A stretch of DNA of 64,000 nt from Chamaelirium japonicum (lineage: Eukaryota > Streptophyta > Magnoliopsida > Liliales > Melanthiaceae): contig CANTAL010000128.1 in assembly GCA_947650365.1 (NCBI GenBank), positions 775,001 to 839,000 of the forward strand. Reading direction: 5' to 3'. The position numbers and the translations under genes were made by a program. Positions 11,501 to 60,009 of this stretch are shown here, one piece after another. The notes under the pieces are model-generated. The model was given only the letters and a program-made list of their open reading frames with translations. It was not told where the DNA came from and searched no databases. Position 1 is the stretch's first letter, and every line of letters begins with the position of its first letter.

Positions 11501-14500
11501 AAGTTGGACATCTTGGAGATCGGCTTCCCTCTCCACATCCTCGAAAGGCAATATGTTCTCCACATTGATCGGCTGAGAATCATTGGCTTCTTTATCTTTG
11601 GTTGTCTTCATGAAATGTAAGTTCATTCGAACGAAAACCAAATCATGTAGCTTCTTGGGTTCCAACCGGTTCCTCTTCTTTGTGTGTGCGGCATCAAAAG
11701 CACTCCAATTCCTTTCGCATGCCGAAGCACTACATGGTTGACTATGCAATTTGATTGCCAACCGTTGAAGAGTTGGAACCTCATCTCCCCACATGTGCCA
11801 CCAAACTCCTATATAGCACAATGCATACAAATACAAAATCCCAATTATCAAATCATAAAAACAACCAAGCAACAAACTAATCAAACTTTAAAAAACTATA
11901 GTAAAAAAAAGAATACGCACTTGGATGCTCTATGCTCAAGGATTCGATTGCCAAATGTGCAAATATCTTTGGATCTTTTTGGTGGTATAATTTGATCTCG
12001 GCAAGAAAAGTTTTTCTCGCATCGGGTCCCGGCATCATCTTTTGCAAAACCTTCTCAAATCCGCTTTTTTACTTCTCTATCCATTTTCACCAATTTGGAA
12101 ACAAACAAGCTAGGATTGAGAAAACCGGCAACGGCATGTAGAGGGCTATGTAATGTCTTGTTCCACCTCCTATCAATGATTTTCCAATAAGGCATATACT
12201 TCTCATCATCCCCTTTGTAAACTTCCTTGATTGCTTCTTTTGCACGATCCATGCTTTCGTATAAATAACCCATTGTGGAACCATCACCATCAACCATCCT
12301 CAACACCCTCACTAAAGGTTCAACACTATATATTATCTCCTTTCCAATTAACCAAAATTCACTACCTTGGATTGTCATTTGCATATCTATACCTTCTTCA
12401 ATCTTGCTTTGGGGAAGAGACCTCCACTCATTCGAAGCGACCATGAATCGAAGTGCTCGTTCGTCTTTGATGATTGATTGCAAACATAAGAATTCGGTTG
12501 CAAATCTAGTTGCACCCGGCCTTTTCAGCTCTCTACCATGAGTATGCAACCTCATCAAATCCAAAACATGTTGATACTTGTAACAAAACTTTACAATCTT
12601 TCTTGCAAATGCTAGAATAGGTTTCACATGAGGCAATTCATCTATCTCCTCCAAAATAAGATCTAAACAGTGTGCCGCACATGAAGTCTTGAAGATATGT
12701 GGATATCTTTCTTCGATGATAGCTCCCGCTACACCATAATTGGATGCATTATCCGACACCACTTGCACAACATTGTTTGGACCTACCCTTCATTCCCGGA
12801 ACATATGAAATCTGCAATGAAGTTTCCATCCTTCTTCCTTCCAACCGTGCATACCGATTTCAGAAAAACGGTTCCCTTAGGGCAAGTAACCAATAGGTTC
12901 AAATGTGGTCTCTTCCTTGTGTCAGTCCACCCATCTGACATTAAGGTGCATCCTGAATGCGCCCATGATTCTTTCATCGTTTTGATATATTCTTCCACTT
13001 CACCTTTCCAATATCCCAATATCTTCGTTCTAGCCATCTCACTGCTAGGGGGAAAATATCCAGGACCAACAATTGCAACGGCAGCTAATGCTTCTTTGAA
13101 CTCTTCAGATCTTAGTAGATTGAAGGAAAGGTTATTTGCTACCATAGCCTTCACTATAAGATTGTCGGCAACCTGTTTCTCTTTTTTTTAATCAACTTAT
13201 TGATTTTAGTTGATGCACTCCAGACACTCCTTCTCTTGAAGGACTACAAAAAGTAGTCATTGATCATGAACTACCAACTGATGATGGTGTTGATGACGAT
13301 GGCCTCGAAAAATCTGATACCTTAGGCTTCTTCCTTGAGTCAATCTCAATTATAGATTTCTTTGTTGTTTCACAAACACCATCAGGTACAGATGGACATG
13401 CACGGACATCCCTCCCTGATATCTTTGATAGATGGATTTTCATCCTTGTTATAGAACCAATAAACATCTCTTTGCAGAATAGACACCGAATCTTTCCCCC
13501 CTCTTCTTGTAAATATTCCCAAAAGGGATCTCTTCCTCTAGGCATTCTGCGAAAATCTACAATTTAAATAGCATTATCCATAAATAAAAACAAGATGATG
13601 CAACAAACAAAATCATTTGCCACTTTGCTTGCAACTAGATAACATCATAGCACACGCTGCAGTATTCAGCGATGTAAACATACAGTCGAACAAAACTTGC
13701 AAAATGTAAAATATACAGTCAAACAAAACATTCATCGATGTAAACATACAGTCAAACAAAACTTGCAACACTTACAAAACTTTGCTTGCAACTAGATAAC
13801 ATCATAGCACACGCTGCAGTATTCAGCGATGTAAACATACAGTCTATAGTGAAGACTGAAGAGTATAACAACGATGGAGAAAACAACACAAACCGACAAT
13901 TGATGTATTTCACAAACAACACAAAATTTGAGGTATATTCAAAGCCTTGATCCATACCTGAAAGGCATAAATTGGGGCTAAAAAGTGGTGGCTGCAATTC
14001 AATAAAAGTCCTGGTGTTGCTATGTCGGGCTTGCCTACACACAGTCTACACAGAGAAGTAGCAATGAGCCGAGGGAAGAGGCTTCGACCTGCTGTGGGTA
14101 TGCAGACACACATATACAAGGAAGAAGAAGATCTCAAAGGAAGAAGATGAGGGAAAGCGGAAGAAGATGAGAACAAAAAGGAAAGGAGTGAGGGTATCCT
14201 CTTACCTTGAGCTCCGGCGGAGGAGAGTGCTGCCGTCGGCCAAAATCCAGAGCCTCTGCGGAGGAGAGGGTCACTGGAGGAGGCGGAGTGGACGAGAGAG
14301 GCGGATCGAAGGAATGGTGGTGTCGCCAGTCCCCGCCCTTGCAAACCCTAGTCCCAGCGGAGGAAATGATCTCTGGTGGTGCCGCCGGCCGCCGCTCATG
14401 CAAACCCCAACGGAGGAGAGGATCTCTGGTGGTGTCGCGGCTGTCGCCGGCCGCCGCTCATGCGAACCTTAGCCTCGTCGCATCGAAAGAGAGGAACAAC

Positions 14501-31835: not shown

Positions 31836-34799
<2,964 letters not shown>

Positions 34800-35605
34800 G
34801 GAGGAGGATGAGGAAGAGGAAGAGGAAGGAAGGAATGAGGTGATTGTATAGAAATGTTGGGGATTAGCCAATTTATGCGTTGAGGGGCTACCGGCTTCCA
34901 ATTCTTTAAAGAACCTAATCACTGATTGGATCAAGAAGAAAGGGTGATGAGTGTATAAAACTTGCCGATAATGGGCTTTGGTCCGGGTGACGTCACAGAC
35001 CCGTTGGGCCTGACTTGACTTACTTGAACCCTAAATGGTCCAACCCACGTATGAAAGAGGCTACCAATCAGGTTAGGCCACGTGTAGGGCAAGAGAATGG
35101 CTCTCCTCTTGCCAGCCTGGAGCTTTGGAGATTTTCTTTTCCCCTCAGAGTGGTCGTCAACCCGAGCAGCATTTTGAAATGCTGGATACTGGCGTTAGGT
35201 GCTACCAGACTGTGCACTTTGCCTGTGCGGGATTCATCGGTCGGGGATGGATACAATGGACGGCTGGGATCGGGCCACGCCTGAGTGGCGGAAGAAGCAT
35301 GGAAGATAGTATGGCTGAATGGCATTTACTTCTCGGTGTGGTTAGCTATTTTTCTGTCATTAGTTAGTCTTTCTCTTGCATAAGAATCATCCACCTTCTT
35401 GTAGGTCTGGCACTTAGAAACATCTACCTTCCATATAATATACATTTAAGTCATCTGGGATTCATGGAAGGCAACAATCCTTCACTTAGGTAGCCACAAG
35501 TTATCTACAAAGCTTTCTTAATCCCATGAAAATAAAACATCTCCGCCCGCTTTGTTGTGACTGGTCTTTCTCTCTCCTTAGTTGCGAGTCCAGCCTGTAG
35601 GGTTA
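34800..35605. other. Peroxidase upstream region
   Basis: The sequence just upstream of the peroxidase start (minus strand) contains 'gcataaattgg' at about 34872, a possible TATA-like element. A dispersed-repeat copy lies at 35190-35290 ('gattcatcggtcggggatgg'). No other gene. Confidence 0.4.
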
Positions 35606-42043: not shown

Positions 42044-42427
42044 CTAGTGAATGCCCGTGCCTGTCGGAACTGCAGCGGGCCGCCTTCGGCGGCAACACAG
42101 CCCTTGGGCATCGCCACCCCCCCAACCCCCGAACCCAATTCCTCTGCCCCATTTATCTGCCTCGTCGTCTGCCCCAAGTCACAGCCGTCCGATGCACTGT
42201 ACTTGACCGGTGCATCGCACTCAGTCCCAACTGGCAAGCAAAGAAACGGTTCTAATTGGACCAGCGACATAAGCACCAACATGTATCTGATCACTGTCGT
42301 CCCTTTGCCTACAGGTTTGGGTGAGTGCGATGCACCGATCGGCGATCGGGTATGGGTGCAAAGGAGGGCTGTGAGTTGGGGGCAGACGATGGGGTAGAGA
42401 AATAGGGCAGAAGATTTGGGTTCCTTC

Positions 42428-44359
42428 TGTTGGAATTGGATCCGCTTATCAGAGTCGCAGCGGAAGCAAAAGATAGATCCTGGGATCATACGGTGTATGT
42501 TTCATTACAATTAATTCTACAAAACAATCTACATGCAAATCTATGATCTTAGCATATGTACGGACACCCTAGAGGCATACTACGATCTACGGAAGACATG
42601 CATGCATCTAGTTAGGTGTTTAGAATCATCATACCTTATGGATCTATGATCCGAAGAGGACGGAACGATGAAGAACCACACTTGAATCGCAAGGGAAGCT
42701 GTCGGATACCTTTGCGAATTGAGGAATCCTCGAAGTCTCGTCTCTGAGTGCAAGGACTACGAGCCAACGGAGGAATTCGTTACGAAGACGACGACGTGCC
42801 GGTAGGTCTCCTCCTTCTCTTTCTCTCTTCTTCCTTCTCCTTCCTTCCTCCTTCTTCTTCCTCTTTCTTCCTTGGCCGAAACCTCAGAGAGGGAGAGAGG
42901 GGAGGGAGTTCGGGTATTAAGAGAGGGGGAGAGCTAGGGCCGGCCCCTCTCTCTCTTTACCTCTTATAGGGCCGGTCTCCTAGTGCTCCAAGTAAGCTAG
43001 GGCCGGCCCCTAATAGATAGGGATGAGAGGGGGCGGTTTTTAGGGTTTCCAAGTGTCTATCATGAAGCCTGGACGAAAACGCCCTTCACGAAAAGTGAAA
43101 GACTGAAAGAGAAACTGAGTGAGGTGCGCTACTCGGAATCGAGTTCCGTCAGCTCCTATGAGCTCCTGAAATTATTCCGCTCATTCTAAGATCCATATTC
43201 AATGTGTTCTGAGCCATATTTCAGTATTTACCAAAATACCCCTACGGCTCCTAACACATGTGAATTAGGTTCATAGGCTCCGGACTTGCACTCCATCGCG
43301 CTACTTCGCATCCAACGTATCCAACCAGGTCGGGGACCAATTTCTATACACAACGACAGGGTGGAACCTTCAGGGTTCAGGATCTCTAGCTCCAACCGGA
43401 TCCCTTATTAACTGTTCCGGTGACACACCGAAAGTTCCGTTAATCAGCCCTTATCCGATTAACCCGCGCAGCCACCCAGAGTGCGACGCGAGTTAAACTC
43501 TAGTGATCCTAAACTTATGTTACTCCATCATAACCCTGTTCTCTACTATACTCCGATAATCCTTAGTCTCTCCTATTACTGGTACCATGATACGACTCGG
43601 GCGGTGGGGAGCACCGTCAGATCCTGATCGATCATCTGACTAGGAATTGATGACTTGTCATCTATAACACCACACACCTTCCGGTGCTATGCCTAGCATC
43701 CGGAACATCGTTAGTCATACTGACAACCACCAGGCCTGGGTTAACTGTGTGGACAGATTGACTCATCAAAACGCACCCATCCAACACTAGACGTCGGATA
43801 ACCTGTAGGGATTACATGTCACTCAAGCGCCAGCGGGGTAACCCAATGTACCGTGGTATTGGACTATGGAAGGTCCGCACACGTTGGCACATCAAAGCAC
43901 CACACAACTGGTTGGCCCAGTGTACATGGTCCCTTAGGGTTAAGGACATATTATCTATAGTAGTAAGACGGTTTATGCACCAGTGTATGAATCACTGAAC
44001 TGTGTACCGTCTTGGTTCCTGTTCAACACGATCATCGTGCTTGGTCAGGTGAATGGGAATCCTACGTTCCCGTGGTGGAGACTTCAACACATCCTCTACC
44101 TGCCAACAGCTTGTTCTCGGTGAAGCGACCGGCATCACCTAAGCTGTGAACTAGTTCTAGGGCTACACACAACTGGTCCACTGGGTCTCCCAAGCATGGA
44201 TCCACCATACGCCTCAGTAGCCTACTGTGTTCCCTAGGGTCCTTTATTATATATGTATTAACATATACAATAGTAGTATTCTAATTAAAGCAATAACCAA
44301 ATGCATCTTTATTAATGTTAATACAGAAAATCCACGCTCAGGACACATGAGCTACAACA
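42428..44359 (-). repeat. Copia 3' LTR
   Basis: Minus strand TGTTGTAGCTC...CCAATTCCAACA, so TG...CA ends. It contains a polypyrimidine block (42810-42870) and a 'gggccggcccctctctc' segment. It is collinear with 50281-52232. Confidence 0.93.
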
Positions 44360-44372
44360 ATCTCCCACTTGG
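44360..44372 (-). other. Copia polypurine tract
   Basis: Minus strand CCAAGTGGGAGAT lies directly before the 3' LTR TGTTG. This is the classic copia plus-strand primer, and it overlaps the end of pol (stop codon at 44374-44376). Confidence 0.88.
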
Positions 44373-44373
44373 C

Positions 44374-47300
44374 CTAGCGGAGAATAACAGTCTTAACTCC
44401 TATGACATCCACGTGCTTCTCAAAAGCCTTGGTCGGTAACGCCTTTGTAAAAGGGTCCGCCATGTTATCTGCAGACGCCACTTGCGTCACTGCAACCTCC
44501 CCTCGCTTTTGCAAGTCCCGGATAATATAGTATTTCCGCTCGATATGCTTACTCTTCTAGTGATATCTTGGCTCCTTGGATTGTGCTACCGCTCCACTAT
44601 TGTCACAGTAAAGGACAATAGGATCTTGAGCTTCCGGTACGCATCCTAAGTCCGTGAGGAACTTCTTGAGCCACACCGCCGCCTTAGCTGCTTCGCACGC
44701 CGCAACGTACTTAGCCTCTGTCATCGAATCCACGATGCATCCCTGCTTCACGCTCCTCCAACTGACAGCTCCTCCTCCTAATGAAAATACAAACCCTAAC
44801 GTCGATCTCCTAGATTCCGAATCTGACGCAAAGTCAGAATCCGTATATCCAATCGGCATAAGTTCCTATGAAGAGTAAACTAACTTATAATCTCTCGTCC
44901 TACGGAGATACTTAAGTATACTTTTCACAGTAGTCCAGTGCCCTGGACCCGGATTTGACTGATACCTGCCCATCATGCCTACTGCATAGCATATATATGG
45001 TCTCGTGCACTGCATATCATACATCAGACTCCCTACAGCCGAAGCATAAGGTATATTCTGCATCTCTACCCTCTCCTCAGGAGTCTTAGGACCCTGATCC
45101 TTGGACAACTTTATTCCATGTCTGAATGGAACCAGTCCATTTTTGGAGTTGTGCATACTGAATCTGACCAAGATAGTATCTATGTAGGCTGACTGTGACA
45201 ATGAGAGAGTCTTGTTCTGGCGATCTCGAGTTACCTTGATCCCCAGAACATAACTCGTTTCACCTAGGTCTTTCATGTCAAATTGAGAAGATAACTACAC
45301 CTTCACTGTAGACAACGTTCCAACATCGTTTTCAATGAGCATGATATCGTCTATGTAAAGCACTAGAAAAACTACTGCAGTCTTATCGCTCCTTTTATAA
45401 ACACATGGTTCATCCACGTTCTGCTCAAATCCATAAGACTGGATAGCCTGATCAAAACGCATGTTCCAACTTCTGGATGCTTGCTTCAGTCCATAAATGG
45501 ACCTTTGCAACTTGCACACCAGACTTTCCTGACCTTTTACGACAAAGCCTGGAGGTTGAGACATATAGATGTCTTCTTCCAAATCCCCGTTGAGGAATGC
45601 GGTCTTGACGTCCATTTGCCAGATCTCCCAATCATAATGGGCTGCAATGGACAAGAGAATCCGGATAGACTTAAGCATAGCCACTGGCGAAAAGGTTTCG
45701 TCATAGTCGATCCCTTCTCTCTGGGTATAACCCTTAGCGACTAGTCTAGCTTTGTAAGTCTCAACGGTACCATCCGGACCTCTTTTTCTTTTGTACACCC
45801 ACTTATATCCAACAGGTTTAATATTGTGAGGTGGTGTTACAAGTGTCCAGACCGAGTTTTGGGACATCGATGTCAGTTCTGCCTCCATGGCTTTCTGCCA
45901 TGCTGTATGGTAAGAGGATACCATCGCTTCGTCATAGTTCAAAGGATCATCCTCCTGAAATTCTGGATCTACCATGAAGACTTCTCCAATGTATCTATCA
46001 GGAGCACTTGTGGTCCTCCCACTGCGACGAGCCTGTGGTGGTTTCATAGGAGTCGATTCTACAGTATCGTTTATCTTAGTGGTATCGACTCCCACTACGT
46101 TTTCTGTCTGCGTACTCTCATTAGTACCAAGCAATTCTTCAAGAACTACTTTATTGGTGGGCTTATGGTCTATTAAATAATCCTGCTCCATGAATACGGC
46201 ATTCATCGAGACGACAATCTTTCTATCCTCAGGATCATAATATAAACCACCCTTTGTCCCTTTTGGATACCCAACGAACAGACATACCTTAGTTTTTGAC
46301 TCCATCTTATCTCGCTTGTCTTTCCGCATATGTGCTGGACAACCCCAAATCCGAAAGTGTTGTAGGCTTGGCTTTCGCTTCAACCACAGCTCCCAAGGAG
46401 TTAAGGGTACTGACTTTGATGGAACAAAGTTCAAAGTATATGCTGCCGTCTCTAGGGATATCCCCAAAAACTAGGTGGCAATGTGGTATAACTCATCATA
46501 GTCCGAACCATGTTTAACAAAGTTCAGTTTCTCCTCTCAGATATACCGTTTTGTTGTGGTGTCCCTAGTGCAGTCAACTGGGATACGATCCCATGCTCAC
46601 GCAGGTACCCAATAAATTCATCCGATAGGTATTCGCCTCTTCGATCCAATCGAAGAGACTTGATACTTTTACCCGTTTACTTTTTTGCTTCAGTTCTGAA
46701 CTCCTTGAACTTATCAAAGGATTCAGACTTCCACCGCATTAGGTATATGTATCCAAACCTCGAGTGATCATCCGTGAAGGTGATAAAATACTCGAAGCCT
46801 CCTATGGCACGGACACTTATGGGCCCACATACATCAGTGTGTACCAACTCTAATACCCCTTGAGATCTGCTACCTTTGGCTCGGAAAGATCTTTTAGTCA
46901 TCTTGCCTTCCAGGCAAGACTGACACGTCGGTAGGCTTTCTAAAATATCTGGACTTAAAAGTCCTACCTTAACCAACCTGTGAATCCTGTTTGAGGCTTT
47001 GTGTCTAAGCTTAGATGCCAAAGGAGTATTAGATTATCTGAGGGATTTTTTCTTTTAGATGAATTAACCACATATGCTTCAGTTATGTTATCCTGCTTAT
47101 GATTGAAGTTAATTACATAGAGACCATTCTGTGTTTTTCCCTTATAAACTAAGGAACCATTTAATTTAATTGACACACCAGAAGCATCAAATAAAACTAA
47201 AAAACCTTTATTATTCTATAAGGAAACAGAAATTAAGTTTCGTCTCAAGGACGGTACATAAAGTATGTCTCTAAGTAATAAACTTCTTTCATCAAGAAAC

Positions 47301-48340
47301 TGCAAGACGACATCTTCAACTGCTTTAGCCTCTGCCACGACCTCAGTTCCCATGCTTAGGATCATCTTCCCATCACCCAGTTTTCTTATCTCCTTGAACC
47401 CCTGCAAAGTATTGCAAGCATGGTTAGTGGAACCAGAATCCACAATCCATGAAACTGGAGAACAACTGGATGCTACAAGGGATTCCACTATGTGGATTTG
47501 AGATATACCTATCTCAGCCTTCTTAGGAGCCGCACGGCAGTCGCCCTTCCAGTGCCCCTTCTTGCCGCATCGGAAATATTTTTCTTTGGGCTTCGTCGGA
47601 CCATTCTGCTTAGGAACCTGCAACTGCACCTGCCCCATCTTCACGGGCTTCTTAGACTTTCTTTTCTGAAACTTATCTTTGGCTTTCAGAGAAGAATTCC
47701 ACTCTACATTCAGGGATTGAGCTCCTACCTTCATCCCGTCCTCTGCCGCCTAGAGCACCACTAGGAGCTCTGCGTTAGACATCTCCAACTAGTTAAGGTT
47801 AAAGTTGGTAATGAAGCCCTCAAACGCTCCTGACAGAGACGCGAGGAAAATGTCGGTCTGGATCTCTGCATCCAAGATGACATCGAAGGAACCAAGCTCA
47901 TTCACATAGCCAAATAATTTGAGCATATGATCCTGAACTAAAGTCCCCTCTGTCATCTTCGTGGACACCAATTTCTTGATGGTCAGGTAACGAGTTACCC
48001 GACTACGACCCTCGAATATTTTCTTTAGATAGAGCATCATGTTTGAAGCGAAGGCCACGTCTTCGACTTGCTTCTGAAGGATGGTCTGCAAGGATGCCAC
48101 TATGTAGCACTTGCACATCTCATCAGCATCTAGTCAGTCTTTTCATTCCTTCAACTAAGCCTCAGTTGCACTTGGTCCCGACATGGCCGGTTGAGGGGTA
48201 CTTAGGGCAATTGTGTGTTTGCCAACCCTTAGGACGAGCATCAGGTTACGCTTCCAGCCCTCGTAGTTTGGTCCCGTAAGTTTATTATCATTAAGGATGG
48301 AGGCAAGGGGGTCGAGCTTGGTCATGATTTCTGTAAACAA
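44374..48340 (-). pseudogene. Copia gag-pol, multiply disrupted
   Basis: Minus strand. Gag starts MFTEIMTKLDPLASILNDNK at 48340. The zinc knuckle at about 47560 reads YFRCGKKGHWKGDC, with the first Cys replaced by Tyr. The protease has DSGSTNH (about 47450). Integrase 47110-46500 has TCQSCLEGK, HTDVCGPIS, TDDHSR and NGISERRN. RT 46080-45295 has [24 protein letters not shown] and YIDDI. RNase H 44859-44374 has YTDSDFASD and SMTEAKYVA, ending VKTVILR. The gene is dead: in-frame stops occur after RT-linker VYSS (44867), after PRYH (44560), after TEAKK (46676) and within RRN*TLL (about 46525), and there are frame changes near 46465 and 45290. Transposition of this copy would need helper proteins. 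Confidence 0.92.
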
Positions 48341-50262
48341 TGGTTCAAAGCAAAATTAGGGTTTACTACAATCTATTTCATGGAATTTAGAAATAGATAA
48401 TGTTTACTCCAGCCGCTATGTCTTCACTACCTCAAGTGGAGACATACAGGAATCTAAATTCCCTGGGCTTGAGCATTGAGACTATCGACCTTGAATTGGA
48501 GACAGCATCTCGGTGAGAGCATGCAACCGCTTTTGCCAACGGGGTTTTTACGACCCAGTCTTCATCAGAATTACCCATGGTAAACTGAAAGACCTCCCAG
48601 TATCCTTTTGGCCAGCTTTATGTGATCCGTGTGTGCAGCAATGGCGGCATCACACAAGCTTTTGGATGCTTCCTATAAATCTAGGTGGTGTCGGTAGGGG
48701 GGTTCATCGGCTCTCGCAGTGCAGGAAAAAACCGTCACCCATTGCTACCGGTATCTTCCATGTCCCGTAGGAAACCACTAGGCGAACCAGCATGGAAGGA
48801 AACACAGCTCTCACCCGGTGGAAATATCGAACTGCGTACCTCCCACCCAGACCCTTAGCCAGTTGATTATGGAGGCCAGGGGCTCCCCTTTGGAGGGAAC
48901 CTTTTACACATCCCTTCTTTATGAGGTTTATGCATATCTAGAAAGGTCACGGCCTCCTAGACTTAGACCCTGGTCTACCGTGCTCCCACTAGGATTACAA
49001 ACCTTCCCGCAAAGCATTAGTATCCTCGGAAAATATCATAGTCCCTATCTTGAATACTCAGCTTTCGCCTTTCTTACAAGGATCACATTACATAGATTCC
49101 AAGGATCCCGATACTTCACTAGTTTGCCCATAATCCTAAGATCTGGAGCCTAGCCTAAGGTCAACGTGGAAAGGACTCCCACTAGAATGAAGCCTCGTTC
49201 ACAATTTGATGCCTGATGTCATAGTAGACCTCATCTCATTACAGGTTTTGATGCTGGCCAAATAGGGACATCCGACAACCTCCGTCGGACCTCAACTTAA
49301 TGGTGGCATAACCAAATCGTGATGAGTTCTTACTACCATCAAATGTCATCTAGAAATGGGTATCACACAGTGAAATCCTAACCTAACTTGGTCGCTAGGA
49401 CCATGTGGGGAAAATGCATCCCACTAGGGTTATCATACTTCTTATTGAGTCATTAGTTATCTCCAAACAAATCTAACACTGCGTCTATCTCGGTGCACAG
49501 TACTTGGCTACCTGAACTACCACGAGGGCGGTTACCACCTTTTCTTTTAGCTAGCCACCGGATTCGCACGTGTTAGAACCATATAAAGATACCAATGAAT
49601 CCATAAGCTTGGTACTAACCCTAAGCCTGATCTAGAGACTAACTCACAAGCAAGATAGATAATCACATTATCATCGGGGTTCTCTAAACACTAAGAAAAG
49701 AGAATCAACAAAAATAACATCCAAACTGAATCAAGTCCAGGGTCCGACCCCTGAACCTGAATAGCACAGCCAAGATATCCTGCTCTTCCGTTCTGCACGA
49801 TCTCTGACGACGATCCCCATCATCGCCAACGTGCATGCTTTCACCGGGTCTTTGCACGCCATGGTACCGCTTGCCCGAACTGTGGATGTAGCATCATCTT
49901 CTTCTTCCTGTGATCGAAAAACTAACACGCTCTGAGCAAGTGCTCGTTCGTGTACAATTTCGCTAGAAAGAAAAGGAAAAAATCATAGAAACATGGCCAG
50001 GGATCTGAGGGTGGTCAACCTCCACCCTCGCCCATCTAGAGCCTTAAAAACCACAGGCATAATAATAATCAATGCAAAATTAAATCCGGGGTCCGACCCC
50101 CGGAAGCATGCAATCACAGATTACTATTTAGCGCGGCACCTGCAAAAAGACGATACATAGCACAATCCATATGTATGATCTACGTCGAACCCCGACGAAA
50201 ACATATGCTATCATATATTCGTATGATATTTTCACGAATTCATGCATGAAACACACACCAAA
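48341..50262 (-). other. Copia leader between PBS and gag
   Basis: About 1.9 kb between the primer site and the gag ATG, unusually long. No conserved frame on either strand. It contains several 'ccactagg' motifs (for example 49180, 49427). Confidence 0.7.
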
Positions 50263-50280
50263 GCATCCTCTGATACCAAT
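50263..50280 (-). other. Copia primer-binding site (tRNA-iMet type)
   Basis: Minus strand ATTGGTATCAGAGGATGC begins immediately after the 5' LTR end ...CTAACA. The first 12 bases, from TGG, match the complement of the initiator tRNA-Met 3' end. Confidence 0.9.
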
Positions 50281-52232
50281 TGTTAGAATTGGATCCGCTT
50301 ATCAGAGTCGCAGCGGAAGCAAAAGATAGATCCTGGGATCATACGGTGTATGTTTCATTACAATTAATTCTACAAAACAATCTACATGCAAATCTATGAT
50401 CTTAGCATATGTGCGGACACCCTAGAGGCATACTACGATCTACGGAAGACATGCATGCATCTAGTTAGGTGTTTAGAATCATCATACCTTATGGATCTAT
50501 GATCCGGAGAGGACGGAACGATGAAGAACTGCACTTGAATCGCAAGGGAAGCTGTCGGATAGCACATTGTCCTTTGCGAATTGAGGAATCCTCGAAGTCC
50601 CGTCTCTGAGTGCAAGGACTACGAGCCGACGGAAATATTCGTTGCGAAGACGACGATGTACCGGTAGATCTCCTCCTTCTCTTTCTCTCTTCTTTATTCT
50701 CCTTCCTTCCTCCTTCTTCTTCCTTCTTCTTCCTCTTTCTTCCTTGGCCGAAACCTCAGAGAGGGAGAGAGGGGAGGGAGTTCGGGTATTAGGAGAGGGG
50801 GAGAGCTAGGGCCTACCCTCCCTCTCTTTACCTCTTATAGGTCCGGTCTCCTAGTGCTCCAAGCAAGCTAGGGTCAGCCCCTAGTAGATAGTGATGAAAG
50901 GGGGCGGTTTTTAGGGTTTCCAAGTGTCTATCGTGAAGCCTGGACGAAAACGCCCTTCACGAAAAGTGAAAAACTGAAAGAGAGACTGAGTGACGTGCGC
51001 TACTCGGAATCGAGTTTCGTCAGCGCCTATGAGCTCTTGGAATTATTCCGCTCATTCTAAGATCCATATTCAATATGTTCTGAGCCATATTTCAGTATTT
51101 ACCAAAATACCCCTACGGCTGACACATATGAATTAGGTTCTTAGGCTCCGGGCTTGCGCTCCATCGCGCTACTTCGCATCCAACGTATCCAACCAGGTCA
51201 GGGAACAATTCCTATACACAACGACAGGGTGGAACCTTCAGGGTTTGGGATCTCTAGCTCCAACCGGATCCCTTATTAACTGTTCCGGTGACACACCGAA
51301 AGTTCCGTTAATCAGCCCTTATCCGATTAACCCGCGCAGCCACCCAGAGTGCGACGCGAGTTAAACTCTAGTGATCCTAAACTTATGTTACTCCATCATA
51401 ACCCTGTTCTCTACTATACTCCGATAATCCTTAGTCTCTCCTATTACTGGTACCATGATACGACTCGGGCGGTGGGGAGCACCGTCAGATCCTGATCGAT
51501 CATCTGACTAGGAATTGATGACTTGTCATCTATAACACCACACACCTTCCGGTGCTATGCCTAGCATCCGGAATATCGTCAGTCATACTGACAACCACCA
51601 GGCCTGGGTTAACTGTGTGGATAGATTGACTCATCAAAACGCACCCATCCAAAATTGGACGTCGGATAACCTGTAAGGATTACATGTCACTCAAGCGCCA
51701 GTCGGGTAACCCAACGTACCGTGGTATTGGACTATGGAAGGTCCGCACACGTTAGCACATCAAAGCACCACACAACTGGTTGGCCCAGTGTACATGGTCC
51801 CTCAGGGTTAAGGACATATTATCTATAGTTGTAAGACGATTTATGCACCAGTGTCTGAATCACTGAACTGTGCACCATTTTGGTTTCTGTTCAACACGAT
51901 CATTGTGCTTGGTCAGGTGAATGGGAATCCCACATTCCCGTGGTGGAGACTTCAATACATCCTCTACCTACCAACAGCTTGTTCTCGGTGAAGCGACCGG
52001 CATCACCTAAGTTGTGAACTAGTTCTAGGTCTACACACAACTGGTCCACTGGGTCTCCCAAGCATAGATCCACCATGCGCCTCAGTGGCCTACTGTGTTC
52101 CCTAGGGCCCTTTATTATATGTGTATTAACATATACCATAGTAGTATTCTAATTAAAGCAATAACCAAAGGCATCTTTATTAATGTTAATACAGAAAATC
52201 CACGCTCAGGACACACGAGCTACTACTACTAG
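50281..52232 (-). repeat. Copia 5' LTR (outer tip displaced by hAT)
   Basis: Collinear with 42428-44359. Differences in the first 300 bp are about six substitutions plus a ~10-bp insertion (gcacattgtc at 50561), so identity is near 97-98%. The outermost bases 'aaca' lie at 59998-60001, beyond the hAT insertion. Confidence 0.92.
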
Positions 52233-52429
52233 TAGGGTTGTGCAAAAACCGACCCGAACCGTCTAACCGAACCGAAACCGATCAAAATTTAACCGAAAAA
52301 ACCGACCCGAATATTAAACCGAACCGAAACGGAACCGAACCGACTAAACCGATTAATTCGGTTTCGGGTTCGGATCCCGGGTACGAAAAACCGAACCGAA
52401 ACCGAAAAACCCGACCCGACTCTGTATAG

Positions 52430-53825
52430 TGTATATTAGTAATATTACCGCGTGAGTGCGTGACTCGGTGACTGCGTGTAAAAGACCCGAGCGAGCGCCG
52501 CACCTCCTTCTCTGAGTCCTCGGCCCAAAACCCTAGCGGAGCTTCGGAGTCTCGCATCTCCGCCTCGGCGCGACGGCGCCTCCTCCTCGGCTCGAAGGTG
52601 ATTCGGAGTCTCGGACCCGCATCTCCTCCTCGACGCGACGGCGACGGCCTATTCTGTGGCTTATCGGCTGACGGCGACGCCCGACGCCCGACGGTGACGG
52701 CCCTAAATCCGAGCAGCTCCTCCTCCTCGCCGACAGCGAGTCAGCGACGGCCAACGCCCTAAGTCTCGGACCCGCATCTCCTCCTCCTCGCCAACAGCGA
52801 CGGCCCTAAATCTGAGCAGCATCTCCTCCTCGGCGGCGTCGGCACCTCCTCCAGCCTCTCTGTCCTCTAAGCCCTCTCTGACCTCTGGCTTGGCCCTCCC
52901 CTTACACTCTCACAGGCTCACAGCCTCAGCCCTCAGGCTCTGCCCTCTGCAGTTTGGACCTCTGCCTCTGGTGCGTTACTGCGTTCCCTTCCCTTCCCTC
53001 CCCGGCTGGCGAGTGGCGGCTGCATCCTGATTCCCCTCCTCAAGGCTCAGGTCAAGGGCGTCACCGGAAAGGCAGAAACAAGATCCTGTGCATCCTCAAG
53101 GCTTACGGTATTATCCATTCTCTCTCTCTCTCTCGAATGGCATTTTTGTGTTTCTGAATCTCTGAATCTCTGATGGTTTAACTTTGTACTTTTGTAGGGC
53201 TGAGGCTGAGGGCTGATCCTAGTGGAGAGCAGGATCCACCGCCTCTCTCGCTACTACTAGAGGACCAAGAAGCTCCCTCCCGTCTGGAAATAGTGAGCAA
53301 CCCTCTATTTTTCTGCTTCTTTGATTGCTGAATGAGTGAATGCATTATGTTTGGTTGATTATTATACTTTCTTTAAACTAATTAAATTCTGCCCTTCGAT
53401 CGCCTGCATGGTTGGCACGTCTGCTATTAGATTTACACATGATTAGTTTAGATTTATCCAATTTGAAGTTGAGAGTTTACTTATGAACGACATAACATTT
53501 TTTTTTTTTTTGAGGATCATCACCTCCCAATTGATAGCACACACATAATTTTTCAGATATTGATTTAGTATTAATCTATAAAGCAAGCTTCATCGATTAT
53601 TGGGTGATGCTTGTTGAGATTCTTGGGACTGTGATTTGTGAATGTGTAGCTAGTTAGAAATTTGCTACGCGACACCGAATTGAAAAATGAGATTTGCAAC
53701 TTGGAGTTGCATTTTATTATTTATTTAACTACTTGAAATCTTGATTGGATATTTTGCTTTCTTGCAACAAGTATGGTATCCAATTTCTGATTTTTACTAA
53801 TTTTGATTTTTATTTTAATTTGTAG
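52430..53825 (+). promoter_or_regulatory. hAT transposase leader/promoter region
   Basis: GC-rich sequence at 52470-52960 with repeated 'catctcctcctcg', 'gcgacggc' motifs, then AT-rich sequence ending in the acceptor before the transposase ATG. Probably a promoter plus 5' untranslated exon(s) and an intron. Exon limits cannot be fixed. Short open frames here are not recognisable. Confidence 0.45.
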
Positions 53826-56064
53826 ATGGAGCATGACATCAATACTCCTCAGGCTTTTACTCCTCCTAGTAGTCATGGTGAAAATATCACACCCGCAAAT
53901 ACTTACACAAGTGGCACTTCCTCCAATCCCACACCAATTGAACTTCGTGATGGTGAAGTTGTTGAATCATTGGAGAAGGGGGAGAAGGGAGCTAAGAGGA
54001 GAAAGGCTGAAATTTGGAACCACTTCATAGTGAATGATATCGGTGACGTTGCCTCTTGTAAGTATTGTAAATCTGAAATTAAGTGTCATTCCAAAAAAAA
54101 TGGAACTACTAGTTTACATAATCATTTTGGTTGCTGCAAGAAAAATCCAAATAAAGGAGATCCAAAGCAAAAAATATTATCTTTTGAAGGCAAGAAGGGT
54201 GATGGGTGTAATCTTGTAGCTATTGGGTTTAGCAAAGAGGCTTGTAGGGATGCCTTGGCTAAGATGGTGATTCTAGATGAGTTACCGTTTAGATTTGTTG
54301 AAGGAGAAGGGTTCCGTCAGTTTTGCAGTGTGGCTGTTCCTAGGTTAGAGCTTCCATCTCGTTTTACAATTTCAAGAAATGTGTGGAGTCTTGTTCAAGA
54401 TGAGAAAAAGAAGTTGAAAAGTGCACTAGTCAACCATTGTCAAAGGGTTTGCCTTACCACTGACACATGGACCTCTTTGCAAAACATCAATTACATGGCT
54501 CTCACAGCCCACTTTATTGACAATGAATGGAAGTTGCAAAAGAGGATCCTTAATTTTGCTCAAGTGGTTAATCATAAGGGGGAAACAATGGCTAAAGAAA
54601 TTGATCGTTGCTTGCGTGAGTGGGGTATTAAAAAAGTATTCACAATTACAGTTGATAATGCTAGCTCAAATGATGTAGGAGTTGGGTTAATGAGGAAGAA
54701 GCTTGTAAAAGAGGGTGGTTGTGTGTTGAGTGGGGAATTCCTACATATGAGGTGTTGTGCTCATATAATAAATCTAATAGTGAATGATGGGTTAAAAGAT
54801 CTCCATAATTCAATTCAAAGTATACGCAATGCTGTTAGATATGTAAGATCTTCTCCTAGTAGGTTGACAAGATTTAAAACTTGTGCAAAAGAGGAGCTTA
54901 TTGAATGTAAGGCAGGGCTAATCTTGGACGTGCCTACTAGATGGAATTCCACCTACTTGATGTTGGATTCTGCACTGAAGTATGAAGAAGCTTTTGAAAG
55001 AATGACAATTGAAGATCTTGACTATCAAGCTCACTTTGGAGAGGATGAGGGTGGGAAGAGAAGAATGGGGCCACCCAAGTTTCATGATTGGGAGAATGCT
55101 AAAGTGTTTGTACAATTTTTGAAGTCCTTCTATGATGTCACTGTTAAAGTTAGTGGGTCTAAGTATGTCACTTCAAATTCTTATTTTGCAGAACTTTGTA
55201 AAATGCAAGTCAAATTAACTCACTGGTCTCAACAGGAAGATTCTTTGTTGAAAAGAATGGCTTTGAGTATGAAAGCAAAATATGACAAGTATTGGGGCTC
55301 ACTTGATAAGATCAATAAGTTATTGTTTGTTGCAGTTGTGCTTGATCCTAGGTACAAACTTGAGTACATCACATGGAATTTTAAAAAGATATATGAAGAT
55401 CATATTGCAGATATGATGACAAAGGGGGTGAGGGACACTGCGATGCAATTATTTCTGTTTTATAGTATGAGTGACCCTAATCAAGAATCGAATGTTGGAG
55501 ATTCAAGAGATGAGATTATGAAAGAGAGTGAAAGTGCTTTTGATGATGCTTATGATTTTGAGTTTGAATGTTTAAAAGATGAGCAAGATGTATTGAAAAA
55601 CAAAAATGAGCTTGACAGATATTTGGTAGAGCCTAAAGAGAAAAGCGTACGTGACTTTGATGTCTTGGCTTGGTGGAAAGCAAATATCCCCAGATATCAG
55701 ATTTTGTCTCAGATAGCACGAGATGTATTAGCCGTTCCAATTTCTACTGTAGCTTCTGAATCGGCCTTTAGCACTGGAGGTCGTATTCTTGATCCCTTTC
55801 GCAGTTCATTGGGTCCTAAGATGGTGGAGGCATTGATATGTGGACAGAATTGGCTTCGATCTTCACATCTACCGCTTGATCTTCCACCACAAGTGGAGGA
55901 AGCTGTTGAAGACCCAGATTTAGGTAATTATAAATGAATATGTATTTTATTACTATGCAATGTGCATTATTGGATTTTGAGTTTGTATGTGAACACTAAA
56001 CGTTTCTGATATTATTTTTATATTCTTTCCTTCAGAAACTTCTATTTCAGAGAATGCAAACTAA
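53826..56064 (+). CDS. hAT (Ac-type, BED zinc-finger) transposase, open
   Basis: One long open exon (703 codons from 53826) without stop or frameshift. The BED finger at about residues 59-105 reads WNHFIVNDIG...CKYC...HNHFGC. The DDE-type catalytic region has TTDTWTS, ITVDNASSND, the RCCAH motif, and VPTRWNSTYLMLD. The C-terminal hAT dimerisation region is at about 596-680 (ELDRYLVEPKE...WWKANIPRYQILSQIARDVL...VASESAFSTGGRI...EALICGQNWL). ATG 53826 follows a good acceptor (atttgtag|ATG), so a 5' untranslated exon is likely upstream. A donor at GATTTAG|gtaatt (55924) and acceptor ccttcag|AAACT (56036) would replace the last four codons by ETSISENAN and end at 56064, giving 708 residues. It acts in the nucleus on hAT termini. 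Confidence 0.88.
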
Positions 56065-56919
56065 AGTGTTTTTTGGTACTTGGTATGGTCTTTACTCTTT
56101 AGTCTTATTAATTTTTCCTTGCTAATTGCATTAAGGGTATTTGCTTCTTGTGGTTAAGATAATGCTTACTGGTGTGTTTGCTCTCACTTTAGGAACTACA
56201 GGAATTAATGTTGGATTTAGCTTTATTGGACGTGACTTTTATAATGCACTTGCTAGTAAGTTCAATGCTTTATTCGAAAAATGATGTCCATCATCCAATA
56301 TTATTGTCTAACATATTCCGCTCTTGTTATATATATAAATGATAACAGTGGTTTATTGGAGTGAACCATAGGGACTGGAGTTGATTTAGATGGCTCGACT
56401 GGATGGTGGACATGGTAGACAGGAAGGCGGCAGTTTGGCCGTAAAATACTAAAATAATTTGCTCATCTTAGTTGTTTGTCTTGTTTTCTCGCTTATTGAT
56501 TGAAACTTGAAAGTGATGATATGTTTTTTGTTGTTTATGTTCTAAATTCTAGGAACCCTATAAAATTCTAATTTTTATCATATTCTGAAGTTTCAAATGT
56601 GCTTGTATTTGTGATTACAACTGCATGTAGTTGTAGTGGTGGAATCGGAACTATTGTAGTTTGGATGCATTTTTTTATTTGTGAGGTCAGATGCAATCTT
56701 TTATGTGCTCAGGACCTCAGGTGGAGGTGCTTTACTGCTTTGTGTTTATACTGTTTGATACTTTGATTTCCATTCACAGTTTTCCACTTCACAGTTCACA
56801 GGTATTCCCTAGTCCCTACTCATCTATATGTTGTTCTATAGATTGATAATTGGCTCCTCTCTACCCACTCACCAACAGAGAGGGCCTGTGTGACGGTTCC
56901 CGCTATTGTTTGCCCACAG

Positions 56920-56997
56920 ATTCGTATACACAGGCTCTATCAGATCATCAAGGACCGCGGCCCCTTCACCGTCTCCAACACCTGGAACCACGCCAAG
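56920..56997 (+). pseudogene. Captured exon, mS34-like (tentative)
   Basis: A 78-bp segment with clean splice borders, tgcccacag|ATTCGT and GCCAAG|gtaaac. It encodes IRIHRLYQIIKDRGPFTVSN TWNHAK in phase 0. The 'RLYxIIxxRGPxTVSNTWNH' pattern resembles a plant mitochondrial small-subunit mS34-type protein as I recall it, but identification is tentative. Its GC content is much higher than the surrounding hAT DNA, and no other exon of that gene is visible. Confidence 0.5.
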
Positions 56998-57059
56998 GTA
57001 AACTCGACCCCCAAACACAGCATTTACTTTCCTCTCGTCGGATGCCCTGTGGGTTTTAG

Positions 57060-58700
57060 GTTCAGATGGTGGGGGATGAAGATAGTATTTCTTTGGACAC
57101 ATAATTTGAAATCATTTTAAATTCTAGAGATAAAGATAGTATTTCTTGCTATCTTTGGGGCCTTTGGATGTAGTGTGTTGCTTGTACAAGTGATCAGTGA
57201 ATGACCAATTTGTTCCCTTTCAAGAACTTGAATTGATTCCTCAATCCTATTGCATAAACCCTTTAGAAAGGATGTCTTTGTTCCTTGTGGCCTTTATTTG
57301 TAGAGAGAGTTTAGAGTGCTTAACTAAAAATGCTTTTGGGGAAAGTTCAGAACTAGTGTCTCAACAAGTAGAACTTTTGGGCTTCATAAAAGCGCTTTTC
57401 AAACACACTTAAGCCTCCTCAACACGCTTTTGGGCTGCAAAAACTCAATCAAACGAGCCCGGAAAGAGTCGAAAGACTCCTTTCTTAGTAGAAGGATGTT
57501 GTTTAAGGGAACCTTTGTTTGTTTATGTAGCAATTCTTTTCCTTTTTCTAGTATTTTTATTTTGGAGTTGACTTTCTTGGAGCTGATAGGGAATGTGAGC
57601 GATGGGGGTAATACATTCTTGGAGCTCGAGCGTTAGGATTTGAGGGTGGTTACATGGTACATTTGAGAATTATTTATGCTAATCAACCTAATTACATGGA
57701 GTTGCAGCTTTTAATTTTCCATCGTGATAACCATCAAACCTTGTCCCATCTAAGCGTTTAAATTGAGTTTTTTGAATATATTGTTTTAGTTTTGAGTCTT
57801 ATTAGATGTTTTATTTCAGTTCTTACTTTTTATTTTAAACCATTGGGGATTACTATGTTAAGCAAAGCATGTCTTAGGAATTTAGATATGAAATAAGGTT
57901 TACTGTGGTACAAGGGTCAAGGTTCTTAATTTAGATTAGTTTTAACTGATAGAGCCCACATACAGAGTAGTTGACCAAGTATTCCATGGGGCCAATGAGA
58001 TATTTGATAGATTCAGAAGCGACAATATAGGAAAAGTGTCGTTCTTTGTTCATTTGGCTGGAAATAATTGTTTATATCTTCAAAAATTATTTCCTGCCAA
58101 AAATGTGCCAAAAACAAAATTAGTTGGAGATGCTTTCTATGTTTCTGTGCTGTGAGTGAAGAATTTTCTCAACCTATATTTGCAAGGGTTTGGGGCATTT
58201 TGTGTATCTCAATTTACGTGCATCTTGGTTTGATTACCGCTTGCTTATTCTATATTATCTTTTTTCTTATGATGAATTGTTGATGGCCACCATCCCAGAA
58301 GATAATGAAATTTCAGCTGATGGATATTAGTCCTTAGAATAGTTTGCCCCAAGATCACGTTGGAATTGAGCTATGTCTGCACTCTGCATTTTCTCATGCT
58401 AAGATGCATAGAAAATTTCACACGTTACACCACCATCTGAAACTGAAGAAGAAAAATAACCTCAGGATTTGTTTTGGACTTTGTTTACTTGCCTTACCGC
58501 CAATTGTTTTGGACCAAATACAGTGGATTAATAAAAGCAACCAAGAAATGGCGTTATGGCATGCTGATTGTCATTTTGTATGGCAAACAATTTCTAGATG
58601 TGCATGTTTTTTCATTACATTGTATACTGTCATGGATACTATATGCCACAAAGTTATTTTGTTTGTGTTCTTTGCTAGACAGGCATTGACTAGATTGGCT
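57060..58700. other. hAT interior, no recognised gene
   Basis: AT-rich, intron-like DNA between the captured exons. Several short open frames (57197-57412, 57430-57636, 58344-58706) show no recognisable motif. May be introns captured with the host exons. Confidence 0.45.
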
Positions 58701-58733
58701 TGTTAGCCTTGTTCTTTGTTTTCACTGCCCAAG

Positions 58734-58877
58734 CCTCATGCTGCCTCACATGGACCAAGGGATGAGACTCCTTTTTATTCAGGTGGAGCTGTCCCTGATT
58801 ATTTGGAACAAAAACGAATTCAGAAAATTTTGCTACTTGGACCTCAAGGATCTGGAACAAGCACCATGTTTAAGCAG
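58734..58877 (+). pseudogene. Captured P-loop exon of an extra-large G protein (XLG)
   Basis: It encodes PHAASHGPRDETPFYSGGAV, then PDYLEQKRIQKILLLGPQGS, then GTSTMFKQ. VPDYLEQ followed by KILLLGPQGSGTST is the start of the G-alpha-like domain of plant XLG proteins, including the nucleotide-binding P-loop (family knowledge). The donor CAG|gtaaga at 58877 is in phase 0, at the conserved FKQ boundary. The acceptor is probably actgcccaag at 58733. The rest of XLG (switch regions, NKxD) is absent, so it cannot be a working G protein. Confidence 0.7.
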
Positions 58878-59006
58878 GTAAGACCATATGTCTTCTTACA
58901 GAGTTCACTTTAGGTTTAGTAGATGAACAGAATCAAGAAGCAATTGTAAATTGGAAGTTGATGTTTCTCATTGTTTTTCATTGTTTATCTACTCTGCACT
59001 CTGCAG

Positions 59007-59345
59007 GCTAAGAAAGCTCTCCGGGCTCTCAAAGCACTACGACTGCTGGAAGCCTGGAACTTCCTGGACTATGACTGGTGCATCGCCGGCGACAGCAAGT
59101 ATCGTTTCTCCAGCACCGCGCAGAGCACCCCCCGCTACATGAATTCCGTTCCCAACCCACCCGCGACTCCGGCGAAGAGCGTCAGCGCATCCGAGGGGAT
59201 CTTCCGGAGGTTCCTGAACACACCCAACTACCCGGACTACATGGTGAGCACGCAGTCGTTTGTGGCGAAGGTGCGGTCTCAGAGCGCGCCGAGGCAGAGG
59301 CCGGAGCCATCTGGCTATTATATGTTTGGTGGTTGTAAAGGTTAG
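59007..59345 (+). pseudogene. Captured IQD (IQ67-domain) protein fragment
   Basis: The acceptor is tctgcag|GCTAAG, then AKKALRALKAL, the second half of the IQ67 calmodulin-binding domain, starting exactly at that family's conserved phase-0 intron. After RLLEAWNFLDYDW it jumps to the C-terminal part: FSSTAQSTPRYMNSVPNPPA, TPAKSVSASEGIFRRFLNTP, NYPDYM, and QSFVAKVRSQSAPRQRPEPS, which is the DUF4005-type tail. The middle of the protein is missing (internal deletion), and the end runs into GYYMFGGCKG then TAG. GC-rich relative to surrounding hAT DNA. It follows the XLG exon by 129 bp in compatible phase. Confidence 0.8.
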
Positions 59346-59509
59346 TAAGGTGGTGAAGCACCCAAATAATTTATCTGTAGCCTATTGTGCCATGCCATCA
59401 AACAGCTTGTGGCCTCCTTCAGGATCTTGTTCTGTGATTTTTTTTGCACAGTAATAGCTGTAGTAGTGGCAATGTTTATGATTAAGTTTCTATTGAAGCA
59501 GGGACTATA

Positions 59510-59700
59510 TTATCGTTATCAGGTTTAGTTTTGAATTCCTGATGCTTTGATCTGATGTCGGCTGCTGGCGAGTTTTTTGCCCAGTTTTGAATTCCTGATT
59601 AAGTTTTTTGCCCAGTTTTGAATTCCTGATGCTTTGCCCAGTTTTGAATTCCTGATTAAGTTTTTTGCCCAGTTTTTTAGTCACTTTAGTGAGGACTCAG
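59510..59700 (+). repeat. Short direct repeats near hAT right end
   Basis: The phrase 'cccagttttgaattcctgat' and 'taagttttttgcccagtttt' recur three to four times between 59528 and 59675. Likely local slippage or subterminal repetition. Confidence 0.6.
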
Positions 59701-60009
59701 AGGGGGGAAGGAAGGGATATAGGGGGTTGTAAAGGTCTATAGGATGGCAGGTGACAGGACCCAATGGAAACAACACGCAATCCAGCTAGCTCTCTATCGA
59801 ATGAATGGGCGTAGGAGAGGGGATTTAAACCGAAACCGAACCGAAACCGAACCGAAAACCGATCACACCGAACCGACAAAAACCGACTATTTCGGTTTCG
59901 GTTTCGGTTTTGTTTTTTTGAAAACCGAAAAAAAAAAAACCGACAAAACCGAAACCGAAACCGACCGACAAAACCGACGCTCACCCCTACGAGCTAGAAC
60001 ACCTTCCCT

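Follow-up and report, generated by a model that had tools for sequence, protein, structure and literature searches.

Gene pickup by cut-and-paste transposons is known mainly from non-autonomous elements. The closest described exception to this pattern is Hatvine-6 of grapevine, whose members share transposase and inverted repeats, while the variable remainder often matches host introns and exons; the family is of variable length and has 35 copies at >90% for the transposase, with 17 potentially functional frames (PMC2528002; statements on this and the other papers cited refer to the portions of text drawn on). In maize, two Ds2 and nine Ds-l4 elements were reported with gene pieces, and the authors cite the suggestion that such pieces arise through faulty repair once the element has excised (PMC3260210). 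Pack-TYPE elements are defined as non-autonomous, and the pipeline used for them files transposase-matching elements as autonomous first (PMC8903248). Here we describe a hAT element from Chamaelirium japonicum, located at 52233-59989 (plus strand, 7,757 bp) of the window, i.e., the whole 64-kb stretch of DNA analysed (G000:C140:775001-839000, from a genome of 1.52 Gb in 3253 contigs). An earlier note on this sequence had proposed hAT termini with a recognisable 8-bp target-site duplication, an uninterrupted transposase between them and captured host genes, and had regarded the combination of intact transposase and captured loci as much less familiar. Termini, duplication and open frame were confirmed, but the combination has a precedent in Hatvine-6. 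This kind of element is thus already known, and it is well resolved here. Very probably we are dealing with an autonomous-type hAT of a multi-copy family, the members of which repeatedly take up host DNA and in at least one clade of which the transposase frame stays open.

Like Hatvine-6, the family combines a shared transposase and shared ends with a genic interior that varies among copies; the likeness is one of description, not of sequence, and the duplication listed for Hatvine-6 is 9 bp instead of 8 (PMC2528002). With the maize elements it has in common the hAT ends and the capture of introns at the DNA level. However, Ds and Ds-like elements possess no open transposase; Ds moves by Ac, and the tested Ds-l elements gave no response to Ac (PMC3260210). 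As in Pack-hAT and other Pack-TYPE elements, coding DNA has been captured between hAT ends, but the open transposase of 703 residues sets the element apart from a class defined as non-autonomous: it works like a Pack element without being one by definition. As the transposase match is sorted first, the pipeline would not count such an element (PMC8903248). Pifvine-3, a family with transposase, likewise has host pieces in its long 5' region, but belongs to the PIF superfamily rather than to hAT (PMC2528002). A hAT of the fungus Pseudocercospora fijiensis amplified a housekeeping gene, histone H3, but this copy, unlike the pieces described here, is intron-free and comes from a transcript or retrocopy (PMC6710886). 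What stands out here is a resolved and apparently still running series of captures, with known donors, in transposase-bearing copies, and a capture upstream that looks as if it were built into the transposase gene; neither a donor-by-donor map nor an upstream leader capture for a hAT was met in the portion of PMC2528002 drawn on. Near-identical transposase-bearing copies that differ by captures of known origin make the capture mechanism directly testable.

The left end of the element starts with TAGGGTTGTGC at 52233, and the right end, GCTCACCCCTA, finishes at 59989. The element sits in the outer edge of the right long terminal repeat (LTR) of a minus-strand copia element, and LTR sequence resumes directly behind it (CGAGCTAG followed by AACA; behind the hAT stand CGAGCTAGAACA and then the copia duplication CCTTC, found at 42423-42427 and 60002-60006); therefore both ends belong to one insertion. 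The right copy of the hAT duplication is CGAGCTAG, and the left copy is recognisable though inexact. In the 64-kb window, clusters of at least four ACCGA repeats are confined to the two subterminal arrays of the element. The terminal pattern TAGGG..CCCTA with an 8-bp duplication (exact in 11 of 20 relatives), the arrays of short subterminal repeats on either side, and a transposase with dimerisation domain, RNase-H fold and D/D/E residues place it in the hAT superfamily. A second family copy within the window was considered and rejected, as nothing was matched apart from repeats inside the element and 27 bp of LTR flank.

The transposase is recognised by Pfam through its RNase-H-like and dimerisation domains (PF14372, 6e-30; PF05699, 3e-29), and the protein with the best database score shares 55% identity over 96%. 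Residues C78, C81, H100 and C104, arranged as in BED fingers, are invariant among 13 aligned sequences, as are D213, D277 and E645, which we take to be catalytic by analogy with Hermes. The frame of 703 residues is open in three of the 21 sequences examined, namely the window copy and the relatives L009 and L010, which form one clade in the tree; in the other 18 fetched loci the longest transposase-like frame is shorter or absent. Synonymous changes are in excess between the window copy and L009 (10 of 18 changes, P 0.001) and between the window copy and L010 (11 of 21, P 0.001), two tests that are not independent of each other; 6 of 14 changes are synonymous between L009 and L010 (P 0.046). 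The selection signal is modest, yet consistent in both comparisons with the window copy. Judged solely by the open frame in three clade members and the substitution pattern, the element appears to be of autonomous type.

Downstream of the transposase follows a patchwork of host pieces that all lie on one strand and keep their introns, as the earlier note had stated. The donors, which that note suggested seeking in the same genome, were found by a genome search (60 candidates, 40 scored) and base-level mapping (Table 1), and the mapping bears out capture at the DNA level, introns having been taken together with exons. The interior thus carries host coding DNA between inverted repeats, as in Pack-TYPE (Pack-hAT) elements. 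Two of the three predicted genes proved correct: the XLG exon is real (E 9e-16; among eight matching database proteins the best are from monocots, Typha first with 75%, and one named match is from a dicot), and so is the IQD piece, with its DUF4005 domain and a donor on contig C10. The supposed mS34-like exon is indeed a captured exon, but of another gene: its donor exon on C8 encodes mL80 (E 8.5e-13 against At1g73940), whereas the window piece alone gave E 0.98, nothing when trimmed, and no database match, and mS34 was rejected. Donor-derived sequence starts at 56933, later than claimed, and nothing before this position comes from the donor. The estimate of at least three host genes agrees with these three donors and is exceeded by the blocks, which also include RPS13 upstream of the transposase, 57085-58319 and 59309-59572.

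The block derived from C4 is matched, in the same search, by its donor and the window copy alone; with a piece 98-99% similar to the donor and confined to a single copy, gene capture by the family looks ongoing. The XLG donor exon reads through, and the window copy and L009 have a 9-base insertion with a stop. Two IQD loci on C10 are equally close to the window piece; the IQD frame is open in the donor and in the window exon, while L009 and L010 have stops. Pfam searches with the C4 and C8 donors and a PDB search with the IQD piece yielded nothing, and Pfam on minus-strand frames returned just PilI at 0.097. The 3' pieces are probably passengers that do not make protein.

When the genome was searched with 52200-56000, 40 of 897 candidates were scored and 83 stretches matched; 20 loci were fetched. 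In 11 of these the termini stand between exact 8-bp duplications (including L020, which lies in a CT repeat); one more matches at 7 of 8 positions, one has no match, and in seven both ends were not recovered. L009 and L010, 97% relatives of the window copy with open frames, carry the same passengers, for which the earlier note had proposed a search among other copies, between own exact duplications (TCTGGCAT and ATTAGGAC) and different flanks. They are 99.4% alike, and the window copy is 98.7% like L009 over 52233-57031, gaps aside. Both have the order mL80-XLG-IQD-C6b without the C4 block and retain other stretches of the C8 locus. Since two 97% copies elsewhere hold the same passengers, the mL80-XLG-IQD pieces moved with the element, and the mosaic is found at three sites with separate target duplications. 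The whole mL80-XLG-IQD block was not seen in the other 18 fetched loci (base-level mapping among these covered L011, L013, L020 and L023). There, captured genes differ: within its fetched 10 kb L011 shows mL80 but neither XLG nor IQD; L023 has mL80 and IQD but no XLG, and L020 has IQD without mL80 or XLG. In L023 and L020 other parts of the IQD locus are present, and C6b comes after them. As sister copies hold different subsets of the pieces, the blocks were added stepwise and trimmed differently. L013 contains a piece of Syf1/CRNKL1 (6.6e-9), preceded by what presumably is a BTB-like stretch, and L014 a cytidine-deaminase domain (4e-11) in a passenger 98.8% like that of L015. Matches of L022 to a FAD-binding domain (0.007) and of the L014 leader to RING (0.009) are marginal, and Pfam found nothing convincing in the passengers of L018, L020 and L021 or the leaders of L016 and L020. 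Copies ending before 56.1 kb, which the earlier note regarded as a sign of wrong limits, are represented by L012 (3.9 kb, ending after ~56.2 kb); we read it as a deletion derivative, because its right subterminal repeats are lost.

Several details of the relatives may be added. The C10 IQD locus supplies different stretches to L020, L023 and the window copy (31-587 versus 130-202 plus 727-979), which reflects either one capture trimmed differently or two captures. The target duplication of L015 is exact, but none matches in L014, the copy with the deaminase passenger, although the two interiors are nearly the same. At L011 (G000:C10:35674796-35684795) two family copies adjoin at 35.68 Mb of C10; no right end was recognised in the 10 kb fetched, but IQD and right-end matches (84-99%) occur on the same strand at C10:35663638-35664890, so that the copy may extend over ~20 kb and contain an insertion. 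L025, L026 and L027 have nearly identical left flanks (TCCACTG.TC.GGC), L026 and L027 being 97% alike inside, and probably go back to a single insertion that was multiplied as part of a larger repeat.

The best account of the capture would be a repair-coupled one: a break or gap within the element, most probably the one that excision leaves behind, would have been filled by copying ectopic templates, and template switches in the course of this repair would produce the patchwork interior. The captured introns speak against a processed transcript as the source, and a patchwork drawn from four large contigs, with internal skips, suits multi-template copying during repair. Another explanation is the insertion of a Helitron or other gene-carrying transposon into an ordinary hAT, since a set of intron-containing gene pieces on one strand is a typical Helitron trait. 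However, 55938-59833 contains no 3' hairpin with CTRR-T on either strand and no internal pair of 9-bp inverted repeats that is perfect and flanked by a duplication of 5 or 8-10 bp (duplications of 2-3 bp lie outside this test), and the pieces stand beside different neighbours in L011, L023 and L020, having been added stepwise. Both the Helitron, for want of its 3' end, and the nested element were rejected, and we consider this origin extremely unlikely. The same holds for a macrotransposon, in which the ends of two different hATs would have jumped together with the host DNA between them. The termini do differ at 2 of 11 positions, but where both ends of a relative were recovered they are about as imperfect, the interior contains neither a further terminus at up to one mismatch nor another ACCGA cluster, and with donors on C4, C6, C8 and C10 it was never one piece of host DNA; this reading was rejected as well and has next to no probability. 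Ordinary rearrangement at this locus, adding passengers that were not mobilised, would agree with the presence of the C4 block in this copy alone; it is nevertheless very improbable, as the mL80-XLG-IQD-C6b order recurs in L009 and L010, two separate sites that have exact duplications and flanks of their own.

Some observations weigh against the proposed capture by an autonomous-type family. Base-by-base inspection of ten junctions showed one overlap of 8 bases, one of 1 and one abutting pair; the other seven contain 1-26 bases that cannot be aligned to either donor without a gap, although some of these seven appear in the BLAST view as imperfect overlaps of 16, 11, 4 and 1 bp. Such mixed junctions are compatible with template switching but do not prove it and are not decisive. 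Furthermore, the left target duplication of the window copy is expanded, Pfam reports no BED domain for the window transposase, though relatives have one, the dN/dS estimates (non-synonymous to synonymous changes) are based on few changes, and 40 of 897 candidates were scored in the search that supplied the 20 loci.

The capture upstream of the transposase is a piece of the RPS13/uS15 gene, matched with E 1.6e-9 in a single frame and E 4e-19 when read across the frame change. It corresponds to a locus on C6 (exons read by eye up to residue 140) and to a defective RPS13 copy on C2, which matches at 88% in the next intron as well (53350-53488); both loci read GGAAATA/GTGAG across the exon end. 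The exon deletion is common to the window copy and L009-L013, and L017 and L021 keep the missing middle, with 48 and 49 of 61 residues equal to plant uS15 and one stop in L021. Further upstream lies a site II/telo-box combination (chance 0.00025 in a Markov model), a candidate core promoter. With a loosened telo box (AA[AC]CCCTA, first 700 bases) the motif is found in 17 of 20 copies, with or without RPS13; the count includes L022, which has no matched left end, and the open-frame copy L009 lacks the motif. The combination resembled a promoter taken over from a ribosomal-protein gene, but arrival of the motif with RPS13 was rejected: neither RPS13 locus matches 52433-53044, and the motif recurs irrespective of RPS13, so we read it as the family's own. 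The C6 locus has a telo box 91 bases before the ATG but no site II within 304 upstream bases.

We propose that the RPS13 exon-intron piece may serve as 5' leader exons of the transposase mRNA, using the splice donor of RPS13; in the predicted splicing, exons ending at 53107 and 53292 would be joined to 53826. Alternatively, the piece is a passive relic, with promoter and leader of the transposase elsewhere. This is a possibility of some weight, though short of an even one: L016, L018, L019 and L020 have the transposase region with another leader, and the telo-box motif stands upstream in most copies whether RPS13 is present or not. For a relic, it would be surprising that all 8 aligned sequences with RPS13 keep GT/AG at each of the four leader sites (L014, which shares just the leader tail, has lost the second splice donor), and that the piece is kept in L012, L017 and L021, which are 89-91% like the window copy in the transposase-spanning match. 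Moreover, the predicted spliced leader of 770 nt has no ATG, the sole absent triplet of 64 (expected 4.4, P 0.012; counted from the telo box, 675 nt, expected 3.2, P 0.033), against 12 in the two introns; L009 has no ATG before the first splice donor. Two points count against a functional leader: the eight leaders are related, so their kept splice sites are weak evidence, and ATG occurs in leader exons once in L010 (open frame) and twice in L013 (broken frame). No hAT transposase led by captured ribosomal-protein exons was recognised among the papers listed by the searches made in an open-licence library. Use of the RPS13 leader would mean that host exons, once captured, can join a transposon's own gene.

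A more far-reaching and tentative reading is that an autonomous hAT lineage continually renews both flanks of its conserved transposase from host genes, with RPS13 exons and splice donor recruited as leader, another leader in another clade, and a 3' cassette replaced faster than the transposase diverges. If so, swapping leader and cassette might help to evade homology-based silencing or to tune transposase expression.

Table 1. Features of the hAT element and its copia host site (positions in the window).
Feature	Position	Strand	Remarks
Left target-site copy, CGAG(CTA)4G	52216-52232	+	9 bases longer (three extra CTA units)
Left terminal inverted repeat, TAGGGTTGTGC	52233-52243	+	In relatives mostly TAGGGCTGTGC
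Left subterminal ACCGA repeats	52248-52405	+	n = 14
Site II and telo-box motif, GGCCCA-AAACCCTA	52522-52535	+	Candidate core promoter of the family
Captured RPS13/uS15 exon part	53045-53107	+	Residues 61-79, frame broken; candidate leader
RPS13 intron position kept	53108-53197	+	GT...AG
Captured RPS13 exon remnant	53198-53292	+	Residues 114-140, internal deletion, one in-frame stop
Second leader intron (putative)	53293-53825	+	RPS13 donor GTGAG, RPS13-like intron sequence 53350-53488, acceptor abuts transposase ATG
hAT transposase	53826-55937	+	703 residues, open, no stop; by frame and domains
Captured mL80 exon/intron piece	56933-57079	+	Donor C8:57018139-57018285(-), 95-96%
C4-derived block	57085-58319	+	Donor C4:39368830-39371230(+), 4 pieces, 97.7-99.2%
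Second piece of the same mL80 locus on C8	58316-58470	+	95-96%
Captured XLG piece	58470-58969	+	Exon 58683-58877 and introns; donor C6:40133224-40133984(+), 92.8 and 95.6%
Captured IQD piece (DUF4005)	58966-59308	+	~0.5 kb internal missing; donor C10:3900572-3901421(-) or relative C10:3588467-3589321(+), 97%
Block C6b	59309-59572	+	Donor C6:15515687-15515945(-), 94%
Right subterminal ACCGA repeats	59829-59977	+	n = 16, same orientation as left
Right terminal inverted repeat, TAGGGGTGAGC (read on -)	59979-59989	-	9 of 11 positions equal left
Right target-site copy, CGAGCTAG	59990-59997	+	Belongs to copia LTR
copia 3' LTR	42428-44359	-	Sister of the hAT-bearing LTR; shows the site without element
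copia 5' LTR	50281-60001	-	Split by hAT: 50281-52232 and 59990-60001

The host copia element (42428-60001, Ty1/copia, minus strand) has RVT_2 in one open stretch and is inserted beside GA-rich repeats with the duplication CCTTC. Its LTRs match at 94.7% over 1950 bp (Kimura two-parameter distance 0.044 over 1925 sites); at assumed substitution rates of 1.3e-8 to 6.5e-9 the copia insertion is about 1.7-3.4 million years old, and the hAT is younger.

Elsewhere in the window, a small non-autonomous hAT-like element of about 472 bp (5155-5626, TAGGGTTGCAC...GTGCACCCCTA) has a CCGGTT-rich interior and flanks TTGATGAT and TCGATGAT, which match at 7 of 8 positions. A decayed hAT of another kind, with DUF659 and hAT dimerisation domains, lies at 11387-12789 on the minus strand. 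Pieces of a peroxidase gene are found at 31839-35030, also on the minus strand (PF00141, 4.8e-39 for 31839-32447; the upstream piece was recognised by eye).

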